DNA of 64,000 nucleotides from Mucor racemosus (Eukaryota; Mucoromycota; Mucoromycetes; Mucorales; Mucoraceae): the NCBI GenBank assembly GCA_027405735.1, contig JAPEHQ010000008.1, forward strand, positions 1,488,001-1,552,000. Reading direction: 5' to 3'. The notes under the pieces were generated by a model that was not told the DNA's origin, did no database searches, and worked only from the letters and a program-made list of their open reading frames with translations. A program made the position numbers and the translations under genes. The first letter of the stretch is position 1; each line of letters opens with the position of its first letter. Below, piece by piece: positions 1,396 through 54,740 of the stretch.

Positions 1396-4300
1396 TTAAA
1401 ATAGAGCGAGAATATGGCTTAAGAATCCTGAGCTGGATTCGTTTGTTGTATCTTCATGTGAGCTTACGGATGCACTATTGATTGTAGATGAATGATCTTC
1501 ACTAGCAGAAGGGACAGCCCTTCTAGAAAAACCAGAAAATGAGAAACCCGGTAATACAAAGCCTTGACTTGTGGTAGAATCTGATTCAGAAGCTGATACA
1601 TCACGACTAGGCAAAGCAGCTCTAACAAGTTTGGTAGCAGATTTTGTAATTACTGGTGCGGAACCTGAGATGAATCGATAAGAACCATCCGCATTCACTT
1701 GAAGGACATTACCAATAGAAAGAATATATATACCGGGCCCATAGAATCCTGGGATATTGAAAGGGAAGCTATAAGTTACAGACCCAATGGTGGTAGTTAA
1801 ACCTGAACTAGCAGCAGCTGTTGTTGTAGCGGTAGCACCTCCTCCAAATAAGTTGGGAAAGCTAAATGCAGGGAATGTAATTGTTGGCAATACGATCTTT
1901 GGGAATGAAAATGTTGGGAAAACAAATCCAGCACCATTGAGATTTTCTGTAGCAGTTCCAGTTGGAGCTCCAGCAAGGAAGGATACAGAACCGCCGAGGC
2001 CGACCTCAATAACAGTACCAGGAGCAATACTGTAATCACCAGCACCTGTATAGTCTTTAATAACATATCCACCGGGTAATGTAATTGTTGGAAAAGAAAC
2101 AGTAGACAAAGTAATACCAGGAATACTAACAACATCACCAGCATTTGCACCAGCAATAAGACCCCCACCAGAAACAATAGATACAACACCATTAGCACCA
2201 ACGGAAATGAGGTTACCAGATTTAGGGGAATAGAAACCTGGGCCAGTATAAGATGGCAGAGCAATGCTACCGAAAGTTACTGTAGGCAAAGAAATGCTTG
2301 GTAATGTCAAACTAGGGAAAATGAATCCAGCTTGATTGGTAGTTGTAGTAGTTACAGGTCCACCTTGAATCCATTGCAAAATACCTATTGAATCAATATA
2401 AATTATGTTTCCAGGACTGACACTATACGTTCCCGGACCCGTAAAAGCACCAACATTAAAGTTACCGGGAAGACTAATGGGAGGGAAGGTAATGGTGGGA
2501 AGCCTAAGAGACCCTGTCTTGAGTCCAAAATACCCGTTACCAAGAGTGTAAGAATAAGAACCACTACTACCCATGGATACAACAGTGTTAGCATTTAATG
2601 TATAGATACCCGGACCAGTATAGGTAGCAATTCTTCCACCTGTAGGGAGATCAAGTGCAGGGAACGTTATGGTTGGCAAAGAAATTTGAGTAGGATATGT
2701 CACAGCAGGTGCTGTAGTCGGCTGAGGAACTATAGATTGAGGCCCACCTAAAACCCATCGAACACCACCATTGGCATCAATTGAGACTTGATTACCAGGA
2801 GTAATTGTATATATACCAGGGCCAGTGAATTGAGGAACTTGAATACCACCATCAAGCGTCAATGTTGGAAAGGAAAATTGTGGAAGATAGAGATTACCAT
2901 TATTAATGTTGAAAAATCCATTACCAGTAATATATGTGTAAGATCCTTGAGAATTAACAGACACAACAGACGATGAACCAACGGTATAAATACCGGCACC
3001 TGTAAATCCAGAAATTGATACAGCACCTGGAAGGTTAACGTTGGGGAAGGTTACTGTAGGCAAAGTGATTGATGGAAATGTAATAGGATATACAACATGT
3101 TGAGTAGGGTTTATAGTAACAGATGTAGAAGTTACAGGGGGCCCACCAGAGATGAATTTGTAAGTGCCATCATGATTTACTTGAACAACATTTCCAGGAC
3201 TCAAAATGTAGATACCGGGCCCAAAGAACCCAGGAATATTAAATGGGAAACTGAATGTGACACCACCAATAACAGTAGAACCTGGAGACCTTGTTTGGGC
3301 TGGAGTTGTTACAGTAGGAATAGTGAATCCAGGTATAGTAAAACCACCCCCAATGACAGATCGTGGGCCACCCTGAATCCAAGTAACTCCACCAGAAACA
3401 CCAATCGATACAACATTACCAGGATATATAGTATATATACCAGGACCACTAAAATTAGGAACGGGAAAACCACCAGCAAGAGTAATAGTAGGTAATACCA
3501 AAGCAGGAACTGTGAGGCTACCACTAATGCTTCCATTAGGGCCACTGTTACCAAGGTAAGTGTAAACTCCATTAGCTCCTACTGAGAGGGAAACACCAGA
3601 TCCAATTGTATAGGTACCTGCGCCTGTGTATGCTCCAATTGATAGACCGTTACCTAGATTGATTGTAGGTAAATTCAACATCGGTAATGTTATGCTAGGA
3701 AAAGTAATTCCTGCCGGAGCAGATGTACTAGTTGAACTTGGCCAACCAAAGTTAGGGAATGTAAATCCACCACCGGCAGCAGTTGATGGGCCACCTTGAA
3801 TCCATTTGACATCCCCAAAGAAGCCAATAGAAACAACATTACCAGGAGAATATGTATAGATACCAGGACCACTATAATTTGGTAATGTAATACCGCCTGC
3901 AAGGGTCAGTGTAGGTAGAGAAACTTCAGGTAGAGAAACAGAACCAGCCATGTTACCAAAACCACCACTTAGGAAAGAGAACGCGCCATTAGCATCAACA
4001 GATACTACATTTCCAGGACTGATAGTATATGTTCCAGGACCACTAAAACCAACAATATTATATCCACCAATATTAAATCCACCTCCAAGATGAAGAGTAG
4101 GGAGATTCAAGGTAGGTAAAGTGATACCAGGCCATGCAAATGTTGGTAGTGAAATAGTTGGGAAAGTAAATCCACCTCCAGATGCTGACTGAGGACCACC
4201 TTGAAGCCATGTAATACCTCCATTGGATCCAATAGAAAGCACATTACCAGGAGAAAATGTGTAAATACCAGTTCCACTATAACTAGGTACTTCAAATCCT

Positions 4301-7300
4301 CCCGAAAGAGTAACTGTAGGCAAATTCAATTTAGGCAACGAAACTGATCCAACTTTGTTTCCATTACCACCAAAGAGAAAGGAGAACGCACCATTAGCAT
4401 CAACTGATACTACATTTCCAGGACTAACAGTATATGTTCCAGGACCACTAAAACTACCAATATTAAATCCACCTCCAAGATTGAGAGTAGGAAGATTCAA
4501 GGTAGGAAGAGTGATACTAGGCCATGTAAATGTTGGTAACGAAATAGTTGGGAAAGTAAATCCACCTCCAGATGCTGACTGAGGACCACCTTGAAGCCAT
4601 GTAATACTTCCATTGGGTCCAATAGAAAACACATTACCAGGAGAAAATGTATAAATACCAGTTCCACTATAACTAGGTACTTCAAATCCTCCCGAAAGAG
4701 TAACTGTAGGCAAATTCAATTTAGGCAAAGAAACTGACCCAACTTTGTTTCCATTACCACCAAAGAGAAAGGAGAACGCACCATTAGCATCAACTGATAC
4801 TACATTTCCAGGACTAACAGTATATGTTCCAGGACCACTAAAACTACCAATATTAAATCCACCTCCAAGATTGAGAGTAGGAAGATTCAAGGTAGGAAGA
4901 GTGATACTAGGCCATGTAAATGTTGGTAACGAAATAGTTGGGAAAGTAAATCCACCTCCAGATGCTGACTGAGGACCACCTTGAAGCCATGTAATACTTC
5001 CATTGGGTCCAATAGAAAACACATTACCAGGAGAAAATGTGTAAATACCAATTCCACTATAACTAGGTACTTCAAATCCTCCCGAAAGAGTAACTGTAGG
5101 CAAATTCAATTTAGGCAAAGAAACTGATCCAACTTTGTTTCCATTACCACCAAAGAGGAAAGAGAATGCACCATTAGCATCAACCGATACTACATTTCCA
5201 GGACTAACAGTATATGTTCCAGGACCACTAAAACTACCAATATTAAATCCACCTCCAAGATTGAGAGTAGGAAGATTCAAGGTAGGAAGAGTGATACTAG
5301 GCCATGTAAATGTTGGTAGTGAAATAGTTGGGAAAGTAAATCCACCTCCAGATGCTGACTGAGGACCACCTTGAAGCCATGTAATACCTCCATTGGATCC
5401 AATAGAAAATACATTACCAGGAGAAAATGTATAAATACCAGTTCCACTATAACTAGGTACTTCAAATCCTCCCGAAAGAGTAACTGTAGGCAAATTCAAT
5501 TTAGGCAAAGAAACTGACCCAACTTTGTTTCCATTACCACCAAAGAGAAAGGAGAACGCACCATTAGCATCAACTGATACTACATTTCCAGGACTAACAG
5601 TATATGTTCCAGGACCACTAAAACTACCAATATTAAATCCACCTCCAAGATTGAGAGTAGGAAGATTCAAGGTAGGAAGAGTGATACTAGGCCATGTAAA
5701 TGTTGGTAGTGAAATGCTAGGTGACATAGTTCCATCACTGTGTTCATTAGTACTGGCTTGAGGACCCCCTTCAACCCAAAAGATACTTCCATTTGCGCCA
5801 ATTGATATGATATTTCCAGGACTGATGGTATATGTTCCAGGACCGGTGAATCCAGGGATATTGAATGGAAGAGAGGATAAGTTACCAGTAGTAGCGGCAT
5901 TACCAGTGTTGATAGCTCCACCATCATTGGTATTAGATGGAGGTCCACCTGTCAAGAAGCTATATGATCCATCAGGACTAACAGATACGACATTTCCAGG
6001 ACTCAATGTATATGTTCCAGGACCAGTGAACCCAGGAATATTGAATGGAAGAGAGACTGAGCTACCAGTAGTAGCGGCATCACCAGTCTTAACTGCTCCA
6101 CCATCATTAATATTAGAAGGAGGTCCACCTGTCAAGAAGCTATATGATCCATCAGGACTAACCGATACGACATTTCCAGGACTCAATGTATATGTTCCTG
6201 GACCAGCGAATCCAGGAATATTGAATGGAAGAGAGAATGAAGTACCAGTAGTAGCTGCATCACCAGTCTTAACTGCTCCACCATCATTGATATTAGAAGG
6301 AGGTCCACCTGTCAAGAAGCTATATGATCCATCAGGGCTAACAGATACGACATTTCCAGGGCTCAATGTATATGTTCCTGGACCAGTGAATCCAGGAATA
6401 ATGAATGGAAGAGAGGATAAGCTACCAGTAGTAGCTGCATCACCAGTCTTAACTGCTCCACCATCATTGATATTAGATGGAGGTCCACCTGTCAAGAAGC
6501 TGTATGATCCATCAGGACTAACAGATACGACATTTCCAGGACTCAATGTATATGTTCCTGGACCAGTGAATCCAGGAATATTGAATGGAAGAGAGTCTGA
6601 GCTACCAGTAGTAGCAGCATTACCGGTGTTGATAGCTCCACCATTATTGATATTAGATGGAGGTCCACCTGTCAAGAAGCTATATGATCCATCAGGGCTA
6701 ACAGATACGACATTTCCAGGACTCAATGTATATGTTCCTGGACCAGTGAACCCAGGAATATTGAATGGAAGAGAGACTGAGCTACCAGTAGTAGCAGCAT
6801 TACCGGTGTTGATGGCTCCACCATTATTGATATTAGAAGGAGGTCCACCTGTCAAGAAGCTATATGATCCATCAGGACTAACAGATACGACATTTCCAGG
6901 ACTGATGGTATATGTTCCTGAACCAGTGAATCCAGGAATAATGAATGGAAGAGAGGATAAGCTACCAGTAGTAGCTGCATCACCAGTCTTAACTGCTCCA
7001 CCATCATTGATATTAGATGGAGGTCCACCTGTCAAGAAGCTGTATGATCCATCAGGACTAACAGATACGACATTTCCAGGACTCAATGTATATGTTCCTG
7101 GACCAGTGAATCCAGGAATATTGAATGGAAGAGAGTCTGAGCTACCAGTAGTAGCAGCATTACCGGTGTTGATAGCTCCACCATTATTGATATTAGATGG
7201 AGGTCCACCTGTCAAGAAGCTATATGATCCATCAGGGCTAACAGATACGACATTTCCAGGACTCAATGTATATGTTCCTGGACCAGTGAACCCAGGAATA

Positions 7301-10300
7301 TTGAATGGAAGAGAGACTGAGCTACCAGTAGTAGCAGCATTACCGGTGTTGATGGCTCCACCATTATTGATATTAGAAGGAGGTCCACCTGTCAAGAAGC
7401 TATATGATCCATCAGGACTAACAGATACGACATTTCCAGGACTGATGGTATATGTTCCTGAACCAGTGAATCCAGGAATAATGAATGGAAGAGAGGATAA
7501 GCTACCAGTAGTAGCTGCATCACCAGTCTTAACTGCTCCACCATCATTGATATTAGATGGAGGTCCACCTGTCAAGAAGCTGTATGATCCATCAGGACTA
7601 ACAGATACAACATTTCCAGGACTCAATGTATATGTTCCAGGACCAGTGAACCCAGGAATATTGAATGGAAGAGAGACTGAGGTACCAGTAGTAGCGGTAT
7701 TACCGGTGTTGATGGCTCCACCATTATTGATATTAGATGGAGGTCCACCTGCCAAGAAGCTATATGATCCATCAGGGCTAACAGATACAACATTTCCAGG
7801 ACTCAATGTATATGTTCCAGGACCAGTGAACCCAGGAATATTGAATGGAAGAGTGAATGAAGTACCAGTAGTAGCAGCATTACCGGTGTTGATGGCTCCA
7901 CCATTATTGATATTAGATGGAGGTCCACCTGTCAAGAAGCTGTATGATCCGTCAGGGCTAACAGATACGACATTTCCAGGACTCAATGTATATGTTCCTG
8001 GACCAGTGAACCCAGGAATATTGAATGGAAGAGAGACTGAGCTACCAGTAGTAGCAGCATTACCGGTGTTGATGGCTCCACCATTATTGGTATTAGATGG
8101 AGGTCCACCTGTCAAGAAGCTATATGATCCATCAGGGCTAACAGATACGACATTTCCAGGACTCAATGTATATGTTCCTGGACCAGTAAATCCAGGAATA
8201 TTGAATGGAAGAGAGAATGAAGTACCAGTAGTAGCTGCATCACCAGTCTTAACTGCTCCACCATCATTGATATTAGAAGGAGGTCCACCTGTCAAGAAGC
8301 TATATGATCCATCAGGACTAACAGATACAACATTTCCAGGACTGATGGTATATGTTCCTGGACCGGTGAATCCAGGGATATTGAATGGAAGAGAAGATAA
8401 GCTACCAGTAGTAGCGGCATCACCAGTCTTAACTGCTCCACCATCATTAATATTAGAAGGAGGTCCACCTGTCAAGAAGCTATATGATCCATCAGGACTA
8501 ACAGATACGACATTTCCAGGGCTCAATGTATATGTTCCTGGACCAGTGAATCCAGGAATATTGAATGGAAGAGAGAATGAAGTACCAGTAGTAGCTGCAT
8601 CACCAGTCTTGATAGCTCCACCATCATTAATATTAGAAGGAGGCCCACCTGTCAAGAAGCTATATGATCCATCAGGACTAACCGATACGATATTTCCAGG
8701 AGTCAATGTATATGTTCCAGGACCAGTGAATCCAGGAATATTGAATGGAAGAGAGACTGAGCTACCAGTAGTAGCGGCATTACCAGTGTTGATAGCTCCA
8801 CCATTATTGATATTAGATGGAGGTCCACCTGTCAAGAAGCTGTATGATCCGTCAGGACTAACAGATACAACATTTCCAGGACTGATGGTATATGTTCCTG
8901 AACCAGTGAATCCAGGAATAATGAATGGAAGAGAGGATAAGCTACCAGTAGTAGCTGCATCACCAGTCTTAACTGCTCCACCATCATTGATATTAGATGG
9001 AGGTCCACCTGTCAAGAAGCTGTATGATCCATCAGGACTAACAGATACAACATTTCCAGGACTCAATGTATATGTTCCAGGACCAGTGAACCCAGGAATA
9101 TTGAATGGAAGAGTGAATGAAGTACCAGTAGTAGCAGCATTACCGGTGTTGATGGCTCCACCATTATTGATATTAGATGGAGGTCCACCTGCCAAGAAGC
9201 TATATGATCCATCAGGGCTAACAGATACAACATTTCCAGGACTCAATGTATATGTTCCAGGACCAGTGAACCCAGGAATATTGAATGGAAGAGTGAATGA
9301 AGTACCAGTAGTAGCAGCATTACCGGTGTTGATGGCTCCACCATTATTGATATTAGATGGAGGTCCACCTGTCAAGAAGCTGTATGATCCGTCAGGGCTA
9401 ACAGATACGACATTTCCAGGACTCAATGTATATGTTCCAGGACCAGTGAATCCAGGAATATTGAATGGAAGAGAGAATGAAGTACCAGTAGTAGCTGTAT
9501 CACCAGTGTTGATAGCTCCACCGTCATTAATATTAGAAGGAGGGCCACCTGTCAAGAAGCTATATGATCCATCAGGATTAACAGATACGACATTTCCAGG
9601 ACTCAATGTATATGTTCCAGGACCAGCGAATCCAGGAATATTGAATGGAAGAGAGACTGAGCTACCAGTAGTAGCTGCAGCACCAGTCTTAACTGCTCCA
9701 CCGTCATTGATATTAGAAGGAGGTCCACCTGTCAAGAAGCTATATGATCCATCAGGACTAACAGATACAACATTTCCAGGGCTCAATGTATATGTTCCAG
9801 GACCAGTGAATCCAAGAATATTGAATGGAAGAGAGTCTGAGCTACCAGTAGTAGCTGTATCACCAGTGTTGATAGCTCCACCGTCATTAATATTAGAAGG
9901 AGGGCCACCTGTCAAGAAGCTATATGATCCATCAGGACTAACAGATACAACATTTCCAGGACTGATGGTATATGTTCCTGGACCAGTGAATCCAGGGATA
10001 TTGAATGGAAGAGAGGATAAGCTACCAGTAGTAGCGGCATTACCAGTGTTGATAGCTCCACCATCATTGGTATTAGATGGAGGTCCACCTGTCAAGAAGC
10101 TATATGACCCGTCAGGACTAACCGATACGACATTTCCAGGGCTCAATGTATATGTTCCAGGACCAGTGAATCCAGGGATATTGAATGGAAGAGTGGGTAA
10201 GCTACCAGTAGTAGCTGCATCGCCAGTCTTAACTGCTCCACCATCATTAATATTAGAAGGAGGTCCACCTGTCAAGAAGCTATATGATCCATCAGGACTA

Positions 10301-13300
10301 ACCGATACGACATTTCCAGGACTCAATGTATATGTTCCAGGACCAGCGAATCCAGGAATATTGAATGGAAGAGAGACTGAGCTACCAGTAGTAGCGGCAT
10401 TACCGGTGTTGATAGCTCCACCATTATTGATATTAGATGGAGGTCCACCTGTCAAGAAGCTATATGATCCATCAGGGCTAACAGATACGACATTTCCAGG
10501 ACTGATGGTATATGTTCCTGAACCAGTGAATCCAGGAATAATGAATGGAAGAGAGGATAAGCTACCAGTAGTAGCTGCATCACCAGTCTTAACTGCTCCA
10601 CCATCATTGATATTAGATGGAGGTCCACCTGTCAAGAAGCTGTATGATCCATCAGGACTAACAGATACAACATTTCCAGGACTCAATGTATATGTTCCAG
10701 GACCAGTGAACCCAGGAATATTGAATGGAAGAGAGACTGAGGTACCAGTAGTAGCGGTATTACCGGTGTTGATGGCTCCACCATTATTGATATTAGATGG
10801 AGGTCCACCTGCCAAGAAGCTATATGATCCATCAGGGCTAACAGATACAACATTTCCAGGACTCAATGTATATGTTCCAGGACCAGTGAACCCAGGAATA
10901 TTGAATGGAAGAGTGAATGAAGTACCAGTAGTAGCAGCATTACCGGTGTTGATGGCTCCACCATTATTGATATTAGATGGAGGTCCACCTGTCAAGAAGC
11001 TATATGATCCATCAGGGCTAACAGATACAACATTTCCAGGACTCAATGTATATGTTCCAGGACCAGTGAACCCAGGAATATTGAATGGAAGAGAGACTGA
11101 GCTACCAGTAGTAGCAGCATCACCAGTCTTGATAGCTCCACCATCATTAATATTAGAAGGAGGCCCACCTGTCAAGAAGCTATATGATCCATCAGGACTA
11201 ACCGATACGATATTTCCAGGAGTCAATGTATATGTTCCAGGACCAGTGAATCCAGGAATATTGAATGGAAGAGAGACTGAGCTACCAGTAGTAGCGGCAT
11301 TACCAGTGTTGATAGCTCCACCATTATTGATATTAGATGGAGGTCCACCTGTCAAGAAGCTGTATGATCCGTCAGGACTAACAGATACAACATTTCCAGG
11401 ACTCAATGTATATGTTCCAGGACCAGTGAACCCAGGAATATTGAATGGAAGAGTGAATGAAGTACCAGTAGTAGCAGCATTACCGGTGTTGATGGCTCCA
11501 CCATTATTGATATTAGATGGAGGTCCACCTGTCAAGAAGCTATATGATCCATCAGGACTAACAGATACGACATTTCCAGGACTGATGGTATATGTTCCTG
11601 AACCAGTGAATCCAGGAATAATGAATGGAAGAGAGGATAAGCTACCAGTAGTAGCTGCATCACCAGTCTTAACTGCTCCACCATCATTGATATTAGATGG
11701 AGGTCCACCTGTCAAGAAGCTGTATGATCCATCAGGACTAACAGATACAACATTTCCAGGACTCAATGTATATGTTCCAGGACCAGTGAACCCAGGAATA
11801 TTGAATGGAAGAGTGAATGAAGTACCAGTAGTAGCAGCATTACCGGTGTTGATGGCTCCACCATTATTGATATTAGATGGAGGTCCACCTGCCAAGAAGC
11901 TATATGATCCATCAGGGCTAACAGATACAACATTTCCAGGACTCAATGTATATGTTCCAGGACCAGTGAACCCAGGAATATTGAATGGAAGAGTGAATGA
12001 AGTACCAGTAGTAGCAGCATTACCGGTGTTGATGGCTCCACCATTATTGATATTAGATGGAGGTCCACCTGTCAAGAAGCTGTATGATCCGTCAGGGCTA
12101 ACAGATACGACATTTCCAGGACTCAATGTATATGTTCCAGGACCAGTGAATCCAGGAATATTGAATGGAAGAGAGAATGAAGTACCAGTAGTAGCTGTAT
12201 CACCAGTGTTGATAGCTCCACCGTCATTAATATTAGAAGGAGGGCCACCTGTCAAGAAGCTATATGATCCATCAGGATTAACAGATACGACATTTCCAGG
12301 ACTCAATGTATATGTTCCAGGACCAGCGAATCCAGGAATATTGAATGGAAGAGAGACTGAGCTACCAGTAGTAGCTGCAGCACCAGTCTTAACTGCTCCA
12401 CCGTCATTGATATTAGAAGGAGGTCCACCTGTCAAGAAGCTATATGATCCATCAGGACTAACAGATACAACATTTCCAGGGCTCAATGTATATGTTCCAG
12501 GACCAGTGAATCCAAGAATATTGAATGGAAGAGAGTCTGAGCTACCAGTAGTAGCTGTATCACCAGTGTTGATAGCTCCACCGTCATTAATATTAGAAGG
12601 AGGGCCACCTGTCAAGAAGCTATATGATCCATCAGGACTAACGGATACAACATTTCCAGGACTGATGGTATATGTTCCTGGACCAGTGAATCCAGGGATA
12701 TTGAATGGAAGAGAGGATAAGCTACCAGTAGTAGCGGCATTACCAGTGTTGATAGCTCCACCATCATTGGTATTAGATGGAGGTCCACCTGTCAAGAAGC
12801 TATATGACCCGTCAGGACTAACCGATACGACATTTCCAGGGCTCAATGTATATGTTCCAGGACCAGTGAATCCAGGGATATTGAATGGAAGAGTGGGTAA
12901 GCTACCAGTAGTAGCTGCATCGCCAGTCTTAACTGCTCCACCATCATTAATATTAGAAGGAGGTCCACCTGTCAAGAAGCTATATGATCCATCAGGACTA
13001 ACCGATACGACATTTCCAGGACTCAATGTATATGTTCCAGGACCAGCGAATCCAGGAATATTGAATGGAAGAGAGACTGAGCTACCAGTAGTAGCGGCAT
13101 TACCGGTGTTGATAGCTCCACCATTATTGATATTAGATGGAGGTCCACCTGTCAAGAAGCTATATGATCCATCAGGGCTAACAGATACGACATTTCCAGG
13201 ACTCAATGTATATGTTCCTGGACCAGTGAATCCAGGAATATTGAATGGAAGAGAGAATGAAGTACCAGTAGTAGCTGCATCACCAGTCTTAACTGCTCCA

Positions 13301-16300
13301 CCATCATTAATATTAGAAGGAGGTCCACCTGTCAAGAAGCTATATGATCCATCAGGACTAACAGATACAACATTTCCAGGGCTCAATGTATATGTTCCAG
13401 GACCAGTGAACCCAGGGATATTGAATGGAAGAGAGGATAAGCTACCAGTAGTAGCTGCATCACCAGTCTTAACTGCTCCACCATCATTAATATTAGAAGG
13501 AGGTCCACCTGTCAAGAAGCTGTATGATCCATCAGGACTAACAGATACGACATTTCCAGGGCTCAATGTATATGTTCCTGGACCAGTGAATCCAGGAATA
13601 TTGAATGGAAGAGAGACTGAGCTACCAGTAGTAGCTGCGTCACCAGTCTTAACTGCTCCATCATCATTGATATTAGAAGGAGGTCCACCTGTCAAGAAGC
13701 TATATGATCCATCAGGGCTAACAGATACAACATTTCCAGGACTCAATGTATATGTTCCAGGACCAGTGAATCCAGGAATATTGAATGGAAGAGAGAATGA
13801 AGTACCAGTAGTAGCTGTATCACCAGTGTTGATAGCTCCACCGTCATTAATATTAGAAGGAGGGCCACCTGTCAAGAAGCTATATGATCCATCAGGATTA
13901 ACAGATACGACATTTCCAAGACTCAATGTATATGTTCCAGGACCAGCGAATCCAGGAATATTGAATGGAAGAGAGACTGAGCTACCAGTAGTAGCTGCAT
14001 CACCAGTCTTAACTGCTCCACCGTCATTGATATTAGAAGGAGGTCCACCTGTCAAGAAGCTATATGATCCATCAGGGCTAACAGATACAACATTTCCAGG
14101 ACTCAATGTATATGTTCCAGGACCAGTGAACCCAGGAATATTGAATGGAAGAGTGAATGAAGTACCAGTAGTAGCGGCATCACCAGTCTTAACTGCTCCA
14201 CCATCATTAATATTAGAAGGAGGTCCACCTGTCAAGAAGCTATATGATCCATCAGGACTAACCGATACGACATTTCCAGGACTCAATGTATATGTTCCAG
14301 GACCAGCGAATCCAGGAATATTGAATGGAAGAGAGAATGAAGTACCAGTAGTAGCTGTATCACCAGTGTTGATAGCTCCACCGTCATTAATATTAGAAGG
14401 AGGGCCACCTGTCAAGAAGCTATATGATCCATCAGGATTAACAGATACGACATTTCCAGGACTCAATGTATATGTTCCTGGACCAGCGAATCCAGGAATA
14501 TTGAATGGAAGAGAGACTGAGCTACCAGTAGTAGCTGCAGCACCAGTCTTAACTGCTCCACCGTCATTGATATTAGAAGGAGGTCCACCTGTCAAGAAGC
14601 TATATGATCCATCAGGGCTAACAGATACAACATTTCCAGGACTCAATGTATATGTTCCAGGACCAGTGAATCCAGGAATATTGAATGGAAGAGAGAATGA
14701 AGTACCAGTAGTAGCTGTATCACCAGTGTTGATAGCTCCACCGTCATTAATATTAGAAGGAGGGCCACCTGTCAAGAAGCTATATGATCCATCAGGACTA
14801 ACAGATACAATATTTCCAGGACTGATGGTATATGTTCCTGGACCGGTGAATCCAGGGATATTGAATGGAAGAGAGACTGAGCTACCAGTAGTAGCTGCGT
14901 CACCAGTCTTAACTGCTCCATCATCATTGATATTAGAAGGAGGTCCACCTGTCAAGAAGCTATATGATCCATCAGGACTAACAGATACAACATTTCCAGG
15001 ACTGATGGTATATGTTCCAGGACCAGTGAACCCAGGAATATTGAATGGAAGAGAGAATGAAGTACCAGTAGTAGCTGTATCACCAGTGTTGATAGCTCCA
15101 CCGTCATTAATATTAGAAGGAGGGCCACCTGTCAAGAAGCTGTATGATCCATCAGGGCTAACAGATACAACATTTCCAGGACTCAATGTATATGTTCCAG
15201 GACCAGCGAATCCAGGAATATTGAATGGAAGAGAGACTGAGCTACCAGTAGTAGCGGCATTACCAGTGTTGATAGCTCCACCATCATTGGTATTAGATGG
15301 AGGTCCACCTGTCAAGAAGCTATATGACCCGTCAGGACTAACCGATACGATATTTCCAGGGCTCAATGTATATGTTCCAGGACCAGTGAATCCAGGAATA
15401 TTGAATGGAAGAGAGACTGAGCTACCAGTAGTAGCGGCATTACCGGTGTTGATGGCTCCACCATTATTGGTATTAGATGGAGGTCCACCTGTCAAGAAGC
15501 TATATGATCCATCAGGACTAACAGATACGACATTTCCAGGACTCAATGTATATGTTCCTGGACCAGTGAACCCAGGAATATTGAATGGAAGAGAGACTGA
15601 GCTACCAGTAGTAGCGGCATTACCAGTGTTGATAGCTCCACCATTATTGATATTAGATGGAGGTCCACCTGTCAAGAAGCTGTATGATCCGTCAGGACTA
15701 ACAGATACGACATTTCCAGGACTCAATGTATATGTTCCAGGACCAGTGAACCCAGGAATATTGAATGGAAGAGAGACTGAGCTACCAGTAGTAACTGCAT
15801 CACCAGTCTTAACTGCTCCACCATCATTGATATTAGATGGAGGTCCACCTGTCAAGAAGCTGTATGATCCATCAGGACTAACAGATACAACATTTCCAGG
15901 ACTCAATGTATATGTTCCAGGACCAGTGAACCCAGGAATATTGAATGGAAGAGAGACTGAGCTACCAGTAGTAGCGGTATTACCGGTGTTGATGGCTCCA
16001 CCATCATTAATATTAGAAGGAGGTCCACCTGTCAAGAAGCTATATGATCCATCAGGACTAACAGATACGACATTTCCAGGACTCAATGTATATGTTCCTG
16101 GACCAGTGAATCCAGGAATATTGAATGGAAGAGAGAATGAACTACCAGTAGTAGCTGCATCACCAGTGTTGATAGCTCCACCGCCATTAATATTAGAAGG
16201 AGGGCCACCTGTCAAGAAGCTATATGATCCATCAGGATTAACAGATACGACATTTCCAGGACTCAATGTATATGTTCCTGGACCAGCGAATCCAGGAATA

Positions 16301-19300
16301 TTGAATGGAAGAGAGAATGAAGTACCAGTAGTAGCTGTATCACCAGTGTTGATAGCTCCACCATTATTGATATTAGATGGAGGTCCACCTGTCAAGAAGC
16401 TATATGATCCATCAGGATTAACAGATACGACATTTCCAGGAGTCAATGTATATGTTCCAGGACCAGTGAATCCAGGAATATTGAATGGAAGAGAGACTGA
16501 GCTACCAGTAGTAGCAGCATTACCGGTGTTGATAGCTCCACCATTATTGATATTAGATGGAGGTCCACCTGTCAAGAAGCTATATGATCCATCAGGACTA
16601 ACCGATACGACATTTCCAGGGCTCAATGTATATGTTCCAGGACCAGTGAATCCAGGAATATTGAATGGAAGAGAGACTGAGCTACCAGTAGTAGCAGCAT
16701 TACCGGTGTTGATGGCTCCACCATTATTGATATTAGATGGAGGTCCACCTGTCAAGAAGCTGTATGATCCATCAGGACTAACAGATACGACATTTCCAGG
16801 ACTCAATGTATATGTTCCAGGACCAGTGAACCCAGGAATATTGAATGGAAGAGAGACTGAGCTACCAGTAGTAGCGGCATTACCGGTGTTGATAGCTCCA
16901 CCATTATTGATATTAGAAGGAGGTCCACCTGTCAAGAAGCTATATGATCCATCAGGGCTAACAGATACGACATTTCCAGGACTCAATGTATATGTTCCTG
17001 GACCAGTGAATCCAGGAATATTGAATGGAAGAGAGAATGAAGTACCAGTAGTAGCTGTATCACCAGTGTTGATAGCTCCACCGTCATTAATATTAGAAGG
17101 AGGGCCACCTGTCAAGAAGCTGTATGATCCATCAGGACTAACAGATACGACATTTCCAGGACTCAATGTATATGTTCCAGGACCAGTGAACCCAGGAATA
17201 TTGAATGGAAGAGAGACTGAGCTACCAGTAGTAGCGGCATTACCAGTGTTGATAGCTCCACCATCATTGGTATTAGATGGAGGTCCACCTGTCAAGAAGC
17301 TATATGATCCATCAGGATTAACCGATACGACATTTCCAGGGCTCAATGTATATGTTCCAGGACCAGTGAATCCAGGGATATTGAATGGAAGAGAGGATAA
17401 GCTACCAGTAGTAGCTGCATCGCCAGTCTTAACTGCTCCACCATTATTGATATTAGATGGAGGTCCACCTGTCAAGAAGCTGTATGATCCATCAGGACTA
17501 ACAGATACAACATTTCCAGGACTCAATGTATATGTTCCAGGACCAGTGAACCCAGGAATATTGAATGGAAGAGAGACTGAGCTACCAGTAGTAGCGGCAT
17601 TACCAGTGTTGATAGCTCCACCATTATTGATATTAGAAGGAGGTCCACCTGTCAAGAAGCTGTATGATCCATCAGGGCTAACAGATACGACATTTCCAGG
17701 ACTCAATGTATATGTTCCAGGACCAGTGAATCCAGGAATATTGAATGGAAGAGAGACTGAGCTACCAGTAGTAGCTGCTTCACCAGTCTTAACTGCTCCA
17801 TCATCATTGATATTAGAAGGAGGTCCACCTGTCAAGAAGCTATATGATCCATCAGGACTAACAGATACAACATTTCCAGGGCTCAATGTATATGTTCCAG
17901 GACCAGTGAACCCAGGAATATTGAATGGAAGAGAGACTGAGCTACCAGTAGTAGCAGCATCACCAGTCTTAACTGCTCCACCATTATTGATATTAGATGG
18001 AGGTCCACTTGTCAAGAAGCTATATGATCCATCAGGACTAACAGATACAACATTTCCAGGACTCAATGTATATGTTCCAGGACCAGTGAATCCAGGAATA
18101 TTGAATGGAAGAGAGACTGAGCTACCAGTAGTAGCAGCATTACCGGTGTTGATAGCTCCACCATCATTGGTATTAGAAGGAGGTCCACCTGTCAAGAAGC
18201 TATATGATCCATCAGGATTAACAGATACGACATTTCCAGGACTCAATGTATATGTTCCAGGACCAGTGAACCCAGGAATATTGAATGGAAGAGAGACTGA
18301 GCTGCCAGTAGTAGCTGCATCACCAGTCTTGATAGCTCCACCATCATTAATATTAGAAGGAGGCCCACCTGTCAAGAAGCTATATGATCCATCAGGACTA
18401 ACCGATACGATATTTCCAGGAGTCAATGTATATGTTCCAGGACCAGTGAATCCAGGAATATTGAATGGAAGAGAGGATAAGCTACCAGTAGTAGCTGCAT
18501 CACCAGTCTTAACTGCTCCACCATCATTGATATTAGAAGGAGGTCCACCTGTCAAGAAGCTATATGACCCATCAGGACTAACCGATACCACATTTCCAGG
18601 ACTCAATGTATATGTTCCAGGACCAGTGAATCCAGGAATATTGAATGGAAGAGAGACTGAGCTACCAGTAGTAGCAGCATTACCGGTGTTGATAGCTCCA
18701 CCATTATTGATATTAGATGGAGGTCCACCTGTCAAGAAGCTATATGATCCATCAGGACTAACAGATACAACATTTCCAGGGCTCAATGTATATGTTCCAG
18801 GACCAGTGAATCCAGGGATATTGAATGGAAGAGAGGATAAGCTACCAGTAGTAGCTGCATTACCGGTGTTGATGGCTCCACCATTATTGATATTAGAAGG
18901 AGGTCCACCTGCGATGAAGCTGTATGATCCATCAGGACTAACAGATACTACATTTCCAGGACTAATTATATAAGATCCAGGGCCTGCAAAGTTAGGGATA
19001 GTAAATGGAAAGGAAAACGTAGTAATTCTACCATCACTTGTAGTGGGAGGACCACCGAATGTAAATCCATAAGAACCATCAACATTTACAGTGATTACTG
19101 AGCCAATACCAAGAGTATAAGTTCCAGCACCATCGAAACCAGGAATAGAGAAGGGGAATTTGAAGTCTCCACTATAAGTAACTATAGGCTTGGCATTTGT
19201 TAATGGATCAACAATTTGATAGATAATTGTTGGTTGTGTAATCGTAACAAAATTTGTTTGCGTTGCGGTTTGTGTTGTAGTAAACAGCTCAACATCTGTA

Positions 19301-20526
19301 ATCGTATCAGTAACAGTAGCAGTAGTTAATTGTGTATCTGTAATAAGTCGAACATCGATATATGTACTTGTTGCAGTAACAAATTCCGTAGCTGTGAGTA
19401 ATTCTACATCAGTTTCGGTGATTGTTACTTCCAAATCAGTTATTGTACTGGTACCAGCCATAGTTACAGTTGAAGTAGAAGGAATGCCATCTACAGTAAC
19501 CGTTACAGGAATGCCATCAATCAATTCAGTAATAGTTGAAGGTACGCCTTCTAAAACAATAGTAGACACAATAGCATCTAATGTTATAATTGAGGCAGCA
19601 TTTGCTACAGTAATTGTTGTTTCGATTCCAGAAAAAGTTAATGTTGTAACAAGACCATTGACAGTCTTTGTGGTCAATACTGTAACCGTTTTATCGCCAT
19701 TACTATTGCCCTTATGGCCTTTTTTACCTCCATATGGATAACCATTATTGGGATAACCATATTGATAACCACCATTGCCATAGCCAGGGCCACCAGGATA
19801 ACCACCCTGATTTCCTTGTTTATGATGATTTACAGCAGGAGGATACACAGGTTGGTTGCCAGGATATGGAACATTATTGCCACGAGGACGCGCATCATGA
19901 ACAGGAGCTTTAGATACTACAGCAGTTGGATAATTGTATTCTGGAAATGATTGAGAATGTAATAAAATATGAGATACAGTTGATTGATGAAGTTGACATA
20001 AAACTGGTCTGTCACCAGGACATATATTCTCAACGCCACCGCCAGGGCCAATACTGCCTACAAAAACGGATAAACAATCTTGGTTATTCTTTACAGGATT
20101 TTCATTCTCACTATAATCCCAAGATCTACATTATCGATTGATAGAAACGTTAGACAATCTAATTTTGTTATTAATGAATAAATGCAATAAATACCCAATC
20201 CAAGCTCTTTGATTAGGGCCAGCACATGTTAAAACAAGGTCAGAAGCGAGTAGAAAGTTCTGATTATTTAGATCAGCCAGAAACCCGCCCAAAGCAATGC
20301 ATGCTGTAGCAGCACCAGTATAAGAATATTTGTCTTTTGAAATGAAATAGCCGCCAGTGCCTGGAGCATTACATTTAGTAATTAAACCACTTCCTCTATG
20401 AGATCCACCACTATATGATTTATGTCCATAATTTTCTTCATATTTCTGAGAGGCAACAGCATTCCTAGATAATGCTAGAATAAAAGCAATCCCTAGGATT
20501 TTATTACGACGCTTTGATATCGCCAT
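1396..20526 (-). CDS. Giant secreted C-type-lectin-like tandem-repeat surface protein (about 6,353 aa)
   Basis: Two exons: 20526-20195 and 20125-1396. The 69-nt intron has GT/AG ends and a CTAAC branch-like site. Splicing is supported because it restores a lectin-like core (WIG|SWDYSENE...NNQDC...VLCQL); unspliced, exon 1 runs into a stop. Order by residue: signal peptide (1 to about 26), C-type-lectin-like domain with paired Cys (about 50-175), Gly/Asn/Tyr linker (about 200-255), Thr-rich stalk (256-403), two diverged repeats, about 73 repeats of 60 aa (about 495-4885), four 130-aa repeats (about 4920-5440), and more divergent units to the C-terminus. Each repeat centres on GPGTYT, PGNVVSV, DGSYSF and GGPP. 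The C-terminus is Ser-rich with a short hydrophobic end; a GPI signal is possible but weak. Inferred role: extracellular or wall adhesin-like protein. The ligand is unknown, and no named family was recognised for the repeat. Confidence 0.88.
4130..5710 (-). repeat. Four tandem 390-bp (130-aa) coding repeats
   Basis: These lie inside the giant gene. The period is exactly 390 bp: the same block recurs at 4107, 4497, 4887 and 5277. Each unit combines two half-repeats. One carries SFSGPGTYTVSPGNVVSV and the other YSGTGIYTFSPGNV, so this looks like a dimer of the 60-aa motif with LPTLNLPTLN-type linkers. Neighbouring units differ at only a few bases, which suggests recent duplication or gene conversion. 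Confidence 0.9.
5830..18990 (-). repeat. About 73 tandem 180-bp (60-aa) coding repeats
   Basis: The block beginning GGTCCACCTGTCAAGAAGC returns every 180 bp from 5941 to 18901 with no indel, giving 73 units in one frame. Variation is concentrated in the linker, as NDGGAVKTGDA versus NNGGAINTGNA and TGSSVS, TGTSFS, TGSLSS or TGSLPT. Larger blocks are copied too: about 6560-7020 is repeated at +540 bp, about 8870-10500 at +2,700 bp, and about 7440-7940 at +3,060 bp. All shifts are whole numbers of units, as expected from unequal exchange or conversion under selection for frame. Confidence 0.95.
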
Positions 20527-30533: not shown

Positions 30534-32093
30534 TTATATGACTCCCATGCTAAAAAAAAAAATTAATTTCTTTTATATGCAATATGCCCTTTATAAAACT
30601 TACCGTGAATAAAACATTTTCAACCTTAACTGTACATTTTCATGGTATAGATCATCAAATGATCGATTCTGATAGAGTCCTAATTGAACGTTCCTCACAA
30701 AACTGTAGAAATTACAAACTGCAACAAGTCTATTACGGCAACTATGATCAATGAGCAACCAATCATCTTCTTCAACAAGACGAAATCGATAGAATTTATG
30801 ATGCATTTGCTGTTTAATGTTTGATTTTCTTCCACAGGAAGCACACTCGAGATAACTCTCTTTATTTTGATGTAGTGATGGTGGTGTATAATATGAATTT
30901 ACAGACCACCTTTCCCATAACGGACGATAATATGCCGATGAAATTGAGTTCATGGGTGATGGTATACTTTTAGCAACATCCATAGTCATATATTCAATAA
31001 AACAAGGCTTATGAAGCATATGTTCCATCATCACTTTAACGCACATGCGAGACTCTGAGTTGCCAAAACTGAGACATGGTTCTATATCTTCTTTTTCGCA
31101 TTGCATGATATATTCGCTTTGTTGGGCTGGCGGTAAAACGATTTGTGGATGTGTATAATAGAAAAATGAGCCATGATTGCTGTTTTCAGTGGATAAAACT
31201 TCTCGCACTTTATTTATTTCATCTTCTTCACTTTCGCTTTCACTATCAAAATAAGAAGATGATCGATAATTGTTACGCTTGCTGCTATTGCTGCTATTGC
31301 TATATTGCTCAAGATATGATTGAAACAGTTTTACTTGCGATACCTCGAAATCAAATGTCCATGTCAATTGGCTGTTGGCATGAAAATTAGATGCAATAGG
31401 TGTTGAAATAGCCAAGATAGTACTGGCAACTGTATTTCGTCGTTTACTGGTTGTTATTGTATTGTCGTTGCTGCTACTACTGATTGTTGTGCTCATTCTG
31501 CGGCTTCGGCACATTAATAATTTTGAGTTGCTACTTGCGTTGCTATGATTTGCAATATATTCAACGCTAAACGGTGCGCTTTTACTGCTAGTGATACTAA
31601 TTGCTGATGGTAAAAGGCTTTCCATTCGAGATTTGAGTTCTCGCAACTGATTTCGTTCATTGACTAGTTGATCCTCTGTCATTTCAAGCTTGGTTTGAAG
31701 CTGCATTCTCATTTTCTTTTCGTTAGCTACCATTTTATTAGCTTCTTCGAACAAGCGAGCACTTAGATCCTCCAGTTCTCGATCTGCCTGCTCTTTTTGG
31801 TACTGTATCTCGGCCATTGTATCGATACCCGCCATGTATTTAATATTGAGTGTTTGAAAGTCCAAGCTTTGGTTTCTAATTTGCAATTCACAGGCACGTA
31901 ATTCTTTTTTCAATTGATTTATTTCATAAGCCTGCAATGTAATTTTGTGTTGGAGTTCATTTGTATATAGACATGCACTTATTTTTCTGTTACATAATTG
32001 ACATTGATGAGGATGTTGTGGTTGAATCACTTTATAACATTCGCAATCTTTTTCATTGCTGCCGACCACTACAATTGCTGTTGCTGCTAGCAT
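30534..32093 (-). CDS. Sec2/Rabin-type Rab guanine-nucleotide exchange factor
   Basis: The coiled coil contains ELEDLSARLFEEANKMV, the signature of Sec2p and Rabin GEFs, which activate Rab8/Sec4-type GTPases on secretory vesicles. A Cys cluster (CQLCNRKISAC) precedes the coiled coil, and the rest is Ser-rich plus a conserved-looking C-terminal module. The start at 32093 is preferred; an upstream in-frame ATG (32213) would add an unlikely hydrophobic leader. The unspliced frame ends at 30600. However, a perfect donor (GGTAAGT, intron 30603-30550, 54 nt, T-tract then AG) lies at that end, and splicing replaces the last residue with RMGVI before a stop at 30534. The spliced form (about 501 aa) is favoured. 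The polarity theme matches the neighbouring RhoGEF. Confidence 0.83.
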
Positions 32094-32389
32094 AATATAT
32101 AAATAAATAAAAAACCAAATAAAAAGCAAGGAATGAGCATGTATGCTTGATAGAAACCTGCCTTTAACATATAAATAATATAATACGGGGGTAAAATATT
32201 CAAAAATAACCAAATGATCTCCTCCTGGACCTCCCCCTGAAAAATTAATAAAGGAATTCGCAGTTAAAAGATGAAATGCACAAGTTCAAAATATGTTGTA
32301 TTAATATAGCTAAAAAAGGAGGGCATGCGATTTCATTTACATTACTTTTGGCTTAGGAATGGCATGGTCACTCACTTTCTAATTTACAA
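32094..32389. other. Upstream region of the Sec2-type gene
   Basis: It should contain the promoter of the gene reading left from 32093. No clear motif was identified. Confidence 0.4.
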
Positions 32390-49876: not shown

Positions 49877-52113
49877 ATGCATAGATTACCTTTACAAAAG
49901 TCTTGTTTACCAAAAAGATTCTTTCCGGTAAAATCTTCTTCTTTTCTCATCGGAAGAGGTGTTAAACATACTTTACGACCTGCAATTATCTTATCAACTA
50001 CTACTACTACAACTAGCCGCACAAATGCCACTTTATTACTTGCCAGTGCCCCTTTTCATCTTCATTCAATAGATAAAAAAGCCGTGCGTCTTGGTAGCAT
50101 TCATTCTCCAGCAACACCAGCAGAAATAGAGCATGCTGAACTTACTCATGAGTCAAGATTTATGCTAATTCGTATATGCAAACGTATAATACAATTCCTC
50201 GACGCATATATCCTCGAACCTATATTGACTCTTAGACGGTTAACACATATTTTAATATTATTTTTACCGGTGGCTATTACTGTGCCTATCGTATTTTTCG
50301 GACAAAAAGCAAATGAAGATGAAAAGGCAGGTACCTTGTGGTGGTATGATTTTCTTGCGACACAAATGGAAAGAGCTGGGCCAACATTTATCAAGGTAAT
50401 AGACAATCAATGCACCTTTAAATACATATTAACATGATAATGTATTAAGCTTGCTCAATGGATAGCATCTCGCACTGATCTTTTTCCATTAGCTTTGTGT
50501 GCTAGATTATCTAAATTACATTCACATGTGGATCCACATCCATTTAGTTATACCCAAAAAGTGATAGAAGAAGCATTTGGTAGACCTTTAGATCAAGTTT
50601 TCACTGAATTAAATCCAGAGCCTTTAGGTGTAGGAGCTATTGCTCAAGTATACAAAGCTCGCATTCGACCCGAGATTTTATTGGGACATGCAGCCGAACA
50701 ATTTTCATTGCAGGACAATACAATTACAACAGATTCCGTACAAACATTGGATAGTGATGGAAAACCAATTGTATTACATACAGCTGTTGCTATTAAAGTG
50801 CTACATCCCAAGGCACGTCAAATTGTACAACGAGACTTGATTATTATGGGATGTGTGGCTAAATTTCTTACATTGATTCCTACTATTCATTGGCTGTCTT
50901 TACCAGATGAAGTTCGAGTATTTGGTGAAATGATGAAGGAACAGCTTGATTTACGAGGCGAAGGAAATAATCTAAAAAGATTCAACGATTATTTCAACGG
51001 TGCTACAGATGTTAAAATCCCAAAATCATTAGCAGCATTTACAACAAAAGACATGTTGTTGGAAGAATATGTAAAAGGCATCCCACTTGATTTGTTTTTA
51101 AATCAAGCTTCTTTTGCCAGAAAATATGAATTGGAACCTATCTTTGATCATAAAATAGCAGATATTGGATTAAATGCATTTTTGGTAATTTTTGGAATTA
51201 TTGTTTTTGAAATTTTGCATATACTAATTACTTGAGAAAACAGCACATGTTGATTTTTTATAATTTTGTTCACGCAGATTTACATCCAGGAAATATCATG
51301 GTGGAATTTTATAAGCCTTCCGCACATCATCCATTGAGATTAGCTTGGTCTAAATTATTAGGAAGAGAACTAAAAGACGATGGAGAGTCTGCGGTCAATA
51401 GAGTATTGGCAGTAAAGCATGATCCTGAAGCTTTACAAAAGGAATTAGAAGTATTGCAGCAAGAAGGATATTCACCACGACTTGTATTTATCGATACTGG
51501 ATTAGTCAACGAATTGAATGATGTAAATAGAAGAAATTTCTTGGATTTGTTTCATGCTGTAGCACAATTCGATGGATATAGAGTAGGCGAGTTAATGGTA
51601 GAAAGATGTAGATCACCTGAAGCGGTAATTCAGCCAGATGTATTTGCCCTGAGGATGCAAAATTTGATTCTTGGATTAAAGCAGAATACATTTCATTTGG
51701 GAGCAGTTAAAATTGGAAATTTGTTACACGAAACAATGAATATGGTGCGATCCCATCATGTTAAAATGGAGGGAGATTTCATTAATGTGGTTGTCAGTAT
51801 CATGTTATTAGAGGGTATTGGTAGACAACTAAATCCTGATCTTGATTTGTTTAAAAACGCTTTACCTGTGCTAAGAGATTACAGTATCAAAGAAGGTGGT
51901 AAAGCAGCATTAGAAGAAATGAAGGATCCTCAATTAAGAGGAGGGCATTGGATTAAGGTGTGGATATTCTTGGAACTCCGAAATTATCTCGGACGAAATA
52001 CCCGTGATGAAGAGTGGTTACAACTATGGTAACATTTAATTTACGTTTGATATTCTCGAATATATTACTAAGTTTATTTTTATAGCGACATTTTATGTCC
52101 AAATACCATTTAG
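49877..52113 (+). CDS. Mitochondrial UbiB/ABC1-type atypical kinase, ADCK2-like
   Basis: Four exons: 49877-50395, 50450-51184, 51244-52028 and 52086-52113, giving about 688 aa. Starting at MHRLPLQKS gives a basic mitochondrial presequence; an upstream ATG (49793) would add a hydrophobic leader. A membrane segment follows near residue 150. UbiB landmarks: FIKLAQWIASRTDLFP (KxGQ-type motif with Ala for Gly), PLGVGAIAQVYKA nucleotide loop, VAIKVLHP lysine, EEYVKGIPL, HADLHPGN, and FIDTGLV in place of DFG. The tail (ELMVERCRSPEAV, LLEGIGRQLNPDLD) favours the ADCK2 branch, linked to coenzyme Q handling in mitochondria. The last intron (52029-52085) has a weaker donor but a TACTAAG branch site; without it the protein ends at 52032. 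Confidence 0.92.
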
Positions 52114-52325
52114 AAGAAACGTTACGAAAGGAGTATCAATAATCATATTGTGTAATAAACTGAAATTTACTTGTCAAATCTTTAGAGATTTGTAACAGGT
52201 TTATAAGTTACATGAGAAATAGAGTTTTTTTTTTTTTTTTTTATATCTTTTTCCTTTCCTCTCTCCTTCACTTTCTTTTTCTTTCCTTTCTCTTTTTTAC
52301 CTTTAACAAATATACCAAAATTTCA

Positions 52326-54740
52326 ATGATAATACCCTCTGCTCCTTCCGATACGGCAGCATCATCTTCATCATGCTCATTTTCATCTCATTCAACAATA
52401 GATACAACAACAAAAGATACCCAAAAATCAACAACATCTAAATCTAAACAGGAATTATGGCATATAATTGAAAGACAACGTGTTATTATACAAGAATTGC
52501 AAAAAGCCCTGATAGATGTATCAAATGACAGAGATGCTTTGTTGCTAAAAAATAAATCTATACCAACTCCTCCACCAAGATCGCCCTATAGGTCTAGCAA
52601 TCATGGTGGAGCTCCCGAAGATTATACCCCAAAACTTAAATTGATACCGCCTATTATACAAAACAACAACAACAACAGGGTCAAAATCAAGATTAAATCA
52701 ATTCATTCAAATACATTTAATATTGCTATAATTGATCATTCAGGGAAAGAATCGTGGAATATCGAGAAAACATATACGGATTTAATACATTTGAACCATA
52801 CCGTAAAGTATAATCTCTTGCCTATAATGAATTCTGTACAACTAACATGCAAAACAAAACAAAAGTTACATAAAAAACTACAATTTTTATTTAATTTATC
52901 CATAGATTTAGTTGACAAAAAACAGCGTAAAAACATGATTGAAGAATTCTTTAAAAATGCGCTTAAATACCGAGGTGATCTTTCCAATGTTTATTCGTTT
53001 ATCTTGACGGGAACATCCAAAAACCAACAAGGTTATTTGTCTAAAAGAGGGAAGCATGTAGTCGGTGGTTGGAAATCATATTACTTTATTCTGTGCGAAT
53101 CCGAGTTGAGATATTTTGATGTAAAGTATATATATATATAAAAAAAAAGACATTCTGTATAATGCCGTATTAACTTTACTTGCTAGACACATCAAGGATA
53201 TCTTTATGTTTATAATATAAAACTAACTCATGATATGCAAATTGGAAAACAAGTAAATGATAACATGGAAACATTTGAGCATGCTTTTATTATATTACAT
53301 GATTCATCAATCATCCTGAGCGCTGATTCGGATGCTGAACGAGATAAATGGGTACAAGCTCTATTATTAATCACAAAAAAACGACGCACGACACAACCTG
53401 TTATACGATATAATTCAAAATCTGAAGCGTTGCCTGTAAGGAGCAGTAGCTATGCCAATAATTATAAAAGCATGTGCATTGAGCACCATCAACAATATTC
53501 GCAATTAAAAACTGACAATCGCTCTAGCATGGATGATCAAGCTATTTTAAATTATTACGAATCGGTTCATCAACCTAGCCAACAACCTCAGCGTACTGTG
53601 GTATCTAAACCAAGCGCGGATTCTTTACCTTTGGATTTACATGACGATGACAAGAGAAAAAAGCATCGAAAATCATTTTGGCCTCGACGTAAATTCTTAA
53701 ATAACAGTAATATACCATCTACTACTACTGCTACTGTAACTACACCAAACTTGGATACAAATATTAGACATACGTTATCCTTTCCATTTATAAATAATAT
53801 AGAGGAAAGCTCCAGTAGTGGTAGTAGCGCATGTTCTACGCCCATGTTTCAAGTATTTGGTGTTCCCCTCGAGGCAGCTATCCGAATTTCCCGAGTTTCT
53901 GATAAATATGAACTACCTGCAATTGTTTATAGATGTATTGAATATCTTGAAGAGAAAAATGCAGCATATGAAGAAGGTATCTATCGTCTTAGTGGAAGTT
54001 CTGTTCAGATAGGTCATCTTCGACAGCAATTTTGTGAAAATGGTGATGTTGATCTGTTGGATGATAAATACGTTGATTTTGATGTACACGTGGTAGCTGG
54101 TTTACTCAAAGCTTGGTTGAGAGAACTTCCTATTAATGTATTAACAAATGAGCTATTAAATGATTTCCTGCTGATAAGTGGTAATATTTCTTGTGATTTT
54201 CAATGTAAAGAAAAAAAAACGTGGAATAACTCATATCCTATTTAGAAATCAAAGATAAGCAAAGCAGAATTCAAGAATTAGGCTTACTGGTATCTATTTT
54301 ACCATTTGCAAATTATACACTTTTGCGCACACTCATTGCTCATTTGATTCACATTGTACGCAATGCTGAATTCAATAAAATGACATTGAGAAATGTAGGA
54401 ATTGTATTTGCCCCTACGTTATCAATTCCGTCTGATATTTTTGCATTGTTGATGAGTGAATTTGGATACGTTTTTTGGACAAACGAACAAGAACAAATTG
54501 TGCCTGAATCATCTACATCTGCAGATAGAATCAAGAATAACTACCTAAAAGCAGAAAAGAGATCAGATCGCAACAGCCGAGATTATAAAAACCAAGTGCC
54601 CACAAATATCATCGGCCTTGAAGATGGTATGTTTTATTTCTTTAACAATTTTTTATTTTTTTGGTAAAAACTAAGTTTTCTTGGTAGATTTTAGACATGA
54701 ATCATTAGCAATTGAACAAGATGAAATCGATAGGGCTTAA
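52326..54740 (+). CDS. PX-PH-RhoGAP protein (Bem3-like Cdc42/Rho GTPase-activating protein)
   Basis: Four exons: 52326-53120, 53187-54180, 54246-54626 and 54688-54740, giving 740 aa; the introns are 61-66 nt and phases agree. ATG 52326 follows a C/T-rich leader. A coiled-coil segment (about 40-65) precedes a PX-like region (about 115-235). A PH domain (about 250-345) is split by the first intron: QGYLSKRGKHVVGGWKSYYF, then SDAERDKWVQALLL. A basic Ser-rich linker follows, then RhoGAP (about 450-690). The RhoGAP carries EGIYRLSGS with the arginine finger, LLKAWLRELP and NKMTLRNVGIVFAPTL. This order matches yeast Bem3, which switches off Cdc42 at growth sites. The partner GTPase here is inferred. 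Confidence 0.92.

Follow-up and report, generated by a model that had tools for sequence, protein, structure and literature searches.

A giant lectin-headed bead-repeat protein of Mucor racemosus, a putative extracellular tether or surface fibre

The 64,000-nucleotide stretch of the Mucor racemosus genome analysed here (the window; assembly GCA_027405735.1, contig JAPEHQ010000008.1, positions 1,488,001 to 1,552,000) contains, on its minus strand, a 19-kb gene (20526-1396) that encodes a protein of 6353 residues with a signal-type N-terminus, a C-type-lectin-like head, a Thr-rich stalk, a string of 95 short beads and a conserved tail. Judging by sequence similarity, this protein is a member of a pin-mould family that has no name, and we consider it somewhat more probable than its alternatives taken together that it serves this Mucor-like fungus as a very long secreted tether or surface fibre.

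The gene consists of two exons (here and below, positions are those of the window, and all features of this gene lie on the minus strand). Exon 1 (20195..20526) encodes residues 1-111, that is, the start codon, the signal-type N-terminus and the first half of the head, and has a counterpart in the ortholog P0012 (PS15p_207574 of Mucor circinelloides; relatives are labelled P0001 to P0016), whereas exon 2 (1396..20125) encodes residues 111-6353 and runs through the stop codon. Reading through the 69-bp intron (20126..20194, GT...AG) meets an in-frame TAA, and joining the exons yields a single terminal stop. P0012, which was annotated from another genome, and P0008 of Mucor saturninus align without a gap across the junction, and moving both intron ends by one base in either direction leaves the protein identical; the single spliced gene of 6353 residues proposed in the initial annotation is thus upheld. 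The computed mass of the protein before processing is 624 kDa, and the isoelectric point is 4.05.

The bulk of the protein is the bead array. The pattern G[PATIS]GxY occurs at 96 places, one of these in the head (residue 56), leaving 95 beads: a diverged first bead (18985..19131, residues 443-491), 73 units in an exact 60-residue register (5845..18984, residues 492-4871) and 21 further beads with other spacings (1654..5844, residues 4872 to about 6268), in which distances of 57-59 and 65-82 residues alternate, with one of 102, and the linkers are rich in PT.LP. The long array reported earlier is therefore real, but the previous count of about 80 repeats is too low by this pattern. Tandem Repeats Finder likewise detects a 180-bp unit in 73.2 copies with 91% matches (5804-18971) and, inside the region of the 21 C-terminal beads, a 390-bp unit in 4.2 copies (4066-5715). 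The bead consensus, gf.ip.f.GPG.YT.SPGNVvSv..dGsy.fl.Ggp, was derived from 188 distinct 40-residue pieces drawn from 381 pattern places in 15 proteins; at least two of these places are false (one in the head of P0008, one in P0012).

The mean DNA identity among the 73 units is 0.919, and 60 of them are distinct at the DNA level and 42 at the protein level. Synonymous differences (pS, 0.174) exceed nonsynonymous ones (pN, 0.049; pN/pS 0.28), and variability is concentrated at the third codon position (0.107, compared with 0.043 at the first and 0.022 at the second). This pattern is evidence of selection on the protein, though weakened because duplication and gene conversion likewise keep units similar. 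Larger blocks have also been copied: at a separation of 15 units, 8 of 58 unit pairs exceed 99.4% identity. The longest exact repeat in the array measures 1073 bp, with its copies 2700 bp apart; such near-identical blocks imply recent duplication.

No convincing Pfam family was found in scans of the array pieces, in agreement with the earlier impression that the repeat has no named family. The Pfam profile Fimbrial_PilY2 (cut-off 25 bits) scored 25.0, 17.2 and 11.7 bits in three array pieces, with no match in the fourth and with no single stretch passing the cut-off in any of the four; P0011 scored 15.6 bits. The piece exactly at the cut-off is 15580-16500, and other beads weakly match the same part of the profile. 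This is probably a chance resemblance of a small beta repeat. The NCBIfam profile TIGR03769 (P_ac_wall_RPT) reached 28.3 bits in one array piece, below its cut-off of 30.9, and its best stretch was 10 residues. An antisense open frame of 4388 aa (5807-18973, plus strand) lies over the array, matches no Pfam family at E up to 0.01 and is taken as a by-product of the regular repeat unit.

A structural model of five beads predicts three strands per unit (15-20, 23-27 and 33-37), which recur 60 and 120 residues further on. The mean predicted local distance difference test score (pLDDT) in 10-residue blocks ranges from 53 to 87 for the beads, against 28-37 for the linkers of the 60-residue array, and the two C-terminal-type beads included in the model have extra short strands around their linkers. 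The repeat is accordingly predicted to form separate three-stranded beads joined by low-confidence linkers, so that, of the two architectures initially suggested, a bead-like stalk is retained and a beta-solenoid is abandoned. The spatial arrangement of the beads was left unpredicted by this model, as expected of a flexible string, and a weak model or a stretched alignment would give the same result. If each unit contributes one small bead and a linker of about 20 residues, then by rough count the fully stretched array might measure several hundred nanometres, or much less if coiled.

The N-terminal region was read by eye as a likely signal peptide (20449..20526, residues 1-26), with KRR, a hydrophobic core and AVA before the cut, as claimed in the initial annotation. 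The head (residues 52-155; 20195..20373 in exon 1 and 19993..20125 in exon 2) contains all six cysteines of the protein. Alignment and predicted structure support the proposed C-type-lectin-like fold, and the cysteines and the WIG motif of this superfamily are present. The Pfam profile Lectin_C (cut-off 22.6 bits) scored 27.1 bits when the genome frame was scanned through the intron and 13.7 bits for the spliced 539-residue piece, and found no match in P0012, P0011, P0016 or P0010. The usual motifs of calcium-dependent sugar binding in C-type lectins are EPN or QPD and WND. In our reading of the alignment, all of these are absent from the heads of the window protein, P0012, P0008 and P0011, so that we rejected an identification as a calcium-dependent C-type lectin. 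The loop from WIG to the next cysteine is short in the window head. Of the binding head originally envisaged, the fold thus stands, whereas binding is something we infer. Other secreted-looking proteins also seem to have the lectin-like fold: P0016 (784 aa, from ENA), with Thr-rich ends, has three stretches alignable with the head and no beads. In the M. racemosus genome, two more stretches weakly match the C-type-lectin-like fold (C5:1636489-1636719 and C5:2324293-2324451), and in the latter a WEAND stretch precedes a cysteine.

The head is followed by a linker rich in Gly, Pro, Tyr and Asn (19687..19992, residues 156-257) and by the stalk (19168..19686, residues 258-430), which contains 28% Thr, as the earlier description of a Thr-rich stalk had it, and is likely O-glycosylated. 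At the opposite end, the conserved tail motif (1519..1563, residues 6299-6313) ends in the sole KR/RR site C-terminal to the head; one KK, outside this pattern, is present at residue 245. The tail motif F..F[SAT]RR, with one or two residues between both F, is found in 10 of the 17 proteins, namely, the window protein, P0002, P0004, P0005, P0007, P0009, P0010, P0011, P0012 and P0013, and appeared only 6 times in 20000 shuffled last-120 stretches of these ten carriers. In nine of the ten, the tail RR is the only KR/RR after residue 40; P0009 has one more. The seven proteins that lack the motif are P0001, P0006, P0008 and P0014, all named partial, P0003, which stops inside a bead, the fragment P0015 and the bead-free P0016; in our judgement, they hold no true C-terminus of the giant bead family. 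A Kex2-type cut at the tail RR is a natural guess. The window protein itself terminates in ILALF, with only its last nine or so residues being moderately hydrophobic; in P0010 and P0011, 8 and 6 residues, respectively, follow the RR, and these include no long hydrophobic stretch.

Protein searches, limited by length range and to the candidates sharing most words, yielded at least 16 relatives, 14 of which contain the bead pattern (all except P0015 and P0016). Twelve have named sources: Mucor lusitanicus (two), M. ambiguus, M. velutinosus, M. circinelloides, M. saturninus, M. flavus, Parasitella parasitica, Pilobolus umbonatus, Helicostylum pulchrum, Backusella circina and one labelled Rhizopus arrhizus. 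Mucor and Rhizopus belong to Mucorales, as do, per taxonomy, Helicostylum, Pilobolus, Backusella and Parasitella. The protein labelled Rhizopus arrhizus (P0003) looks close to the Mucor circinelloides protein and comes from a 3.8-kb contig, and the label may be wrong. None of the 17 matches to one bead pattern in prokaryote contigs was confirmed, and no match was confirmed in viral contigs. In the M. racemosus genome, the head and bead match no locus other than this one at E up to 0.01, and the same is true of the tail and a C-terminal bead pair at E up to 10; all these counts are lower bounds, given that genome searches see one exon at a time. The database names of the relatives are hypothetical, uncharacterized or none. 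Titles and the openings of abstracts in mostly open literature, supplements excluded, contained no description of this family and no mention of the locus names of six relatives, and the main text of PMC4747415 uses neither 'lectin' nor 'repeat'. The protein thus appears undescribed in the literature searched, as first supposed, but not unique, with at least 14 bead-bearing relatives, one of them a full ortholog.

This ortholog, P0012 (3555 residues; 46 pattern places, one false), shares with the window protein the signal-type N-terminus, the head, the splice point, the Thr stalk, the bead core and a tail ending in ILALF, but its long array is built from a 130-residue two-bead unit, in contrast to the 60-residue unit of the window protein. 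The longest self-identical stretches (at least 80% identity, periods of 40-329 tested) are 4409 aa at period 60 in the window protein, 1876 at 130 in P0012, 1855 at 103 in P0013, 906 at 98 in P0014, 949 at 265 in P0001 and 595 at 222 in P0008. Related species have a unit in common: the M. circinelloides group has 130 or 265, and P0013 and P0014 have 98-103. Given that the array units differ and that 84% of the C-terminal 1483-residue stretch of the window protein aligns with P0012 at 75% identity, the sequence comparison suggests that the units expanded separately between orthologous ends.

Under the reading that we favour, the signal-type N-terminus would direct secretion, the lectin-like fold would sit at the free end and might contact another wall component or a ligand, be it a sugar or a protein, and the bead string could be a flexible spacer, its length set by tandem duplication. 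The tail, perhaps after a cut by a Kex2-like protease, may act in sorting the protein or in its attachment to wall or extracellular matrix. Such a protein would work in an adhesin-like manner without membership of a known adhesin family. Yeast flocculins (Flo), as described in PMC8617999, also combine an N-terminal domain with repeats, Ser/Thr-rich ones whose number varies between strains. However, flocculins are wall proteins linked by glycosylphosphatidylinositol (GPI), whereas the window protein consists mostly of Gly/Pro beads and lacks a clear GPI signal, and its head is modelled as a fold other than the flocculin N-terminal domain, a statement made without direct comparison with that domain. 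Bacterial RTX adhesins, according to the abstracts of PMC7493085 and PMC12077191, hold ligand-binding domains off the cell on very long chains of beta repeats. Such a chain is shared with the window protein, but the RTX repeats are calcium-linked beta-sandwiches; the spliced eukaryotic gene, the three-stranded predicted bead and the lack of a confirmed prokaryote match with the one pattern used led us to reject this identity. Several points weigh against the tether: the sugar motifs absent from the head; the weak overall five-bead model (mean pLDDT 58.1, predicted TM score 0.24), with some underlying alignment rows stretched by repeats; the lack of a clear GPI signal or membrane anchor on reading the C-terminus, so that the initially proposed placing of the head away from the wall is no more than a possibility; and P0011 (857 aa), with head, stalk, tail and only three beads by the pattern (about five by eye), which implies that not every relative needs great length.

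The next best explanation, possible but rather unlikely in our estimate, is a structural coat or matrix protein whose beads associate laterally into a layer or slime of spores, sporangia or hyphae, with the head as no more than an anchor or nucleator. The hundreds of short beta strands that are predicted by extrapolation from the five-bead model, the low net charge per 100 residues (-3.0 in the 60-residue array and -0.4 in the C-terminal array), the hydrophobic PT.LP linkers of the latter, the lack of a clear GPI signal and the expansion of different units in different lineages, as if bulk matters over exact sequence, all fit a coat, but the head is conserved (76% identity to P0012 in P0008 and 44% in P0011) and lies at the end opposite the tail, and the linkers of the 60-residue array, predicted to be floppy, suit a tether as well as a matrix.

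Less probable still, and in our view improbable, is that the long array arose as a side effect of unstable repeats, with the ends doing the work and extra units tolerated. The range among bead-bearing proteins from 3 pattern beads (P0011) to 95 (window), the short P0011 that nevertheless has head, stalk and tail, and the recent duplication evident in the 1073-bp exact repeat are in line with this, but several relatives keep long arrays of different units, the 73 units contain no stop or frameshift, and their pN/pS is low, an argument that gene conversion and duplication make less than decisive. As for a genuine gene with a wrong length or junction, owing to a faulty model or a misassembled array, we give it very little credence: exact repeats of up to 1073 bp would trouble short reads, and the array copy number could be off, but the frame is intact across 18.7 kb, most units differ at the DNA level, the genome is assembled in 54 contigs, and the junction is backed by P0012.

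Elsewhere in the window, we identified a piece of a gene for a Sec2p/Rabin8-like exchange factor (30600-32213, minus strand; Pfam Sec2p and RAB3A-like_C), two frames that match ABC1 atypical kinase and are probably exons of one gene (50495-52032, plus strand), two adjoining frames, both weakly matching PH and one of them also matching RhoGAP, that probably form one gene as well (52212-54245, plus strand), and a trace of a mobile element in a frame with a 26-bit Retrotrans_gag match (58889-60097, minus strand).

More speculatively, and as a distinctly tentative proposal, Mucorales might possess a family of giant extracellular tethers with interchangeable units and selected length, for which F..F[SAT]RR near the C-terminus would serve as a sorting or attachment signal of a new kind, distinct from GPI. 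The C-type-lectin-like fold has been mostly studied in animals; the tether reading, if true, would place it at the tip of a fungal fibre, in a very large secreted fungal protein. The bead consensus together with the F..F[SAT]RR tail provides a definition for a family that lacks a convincing Pfam entry. Adhesion molecules are sparsely described in the six fungal phyla outside that of the model yeasts, according to the abstract of PMC6023273, and a single-copy gene amenable to removal and testing in a laboratory Mucor strain would open this poorly studied area of adhesion.
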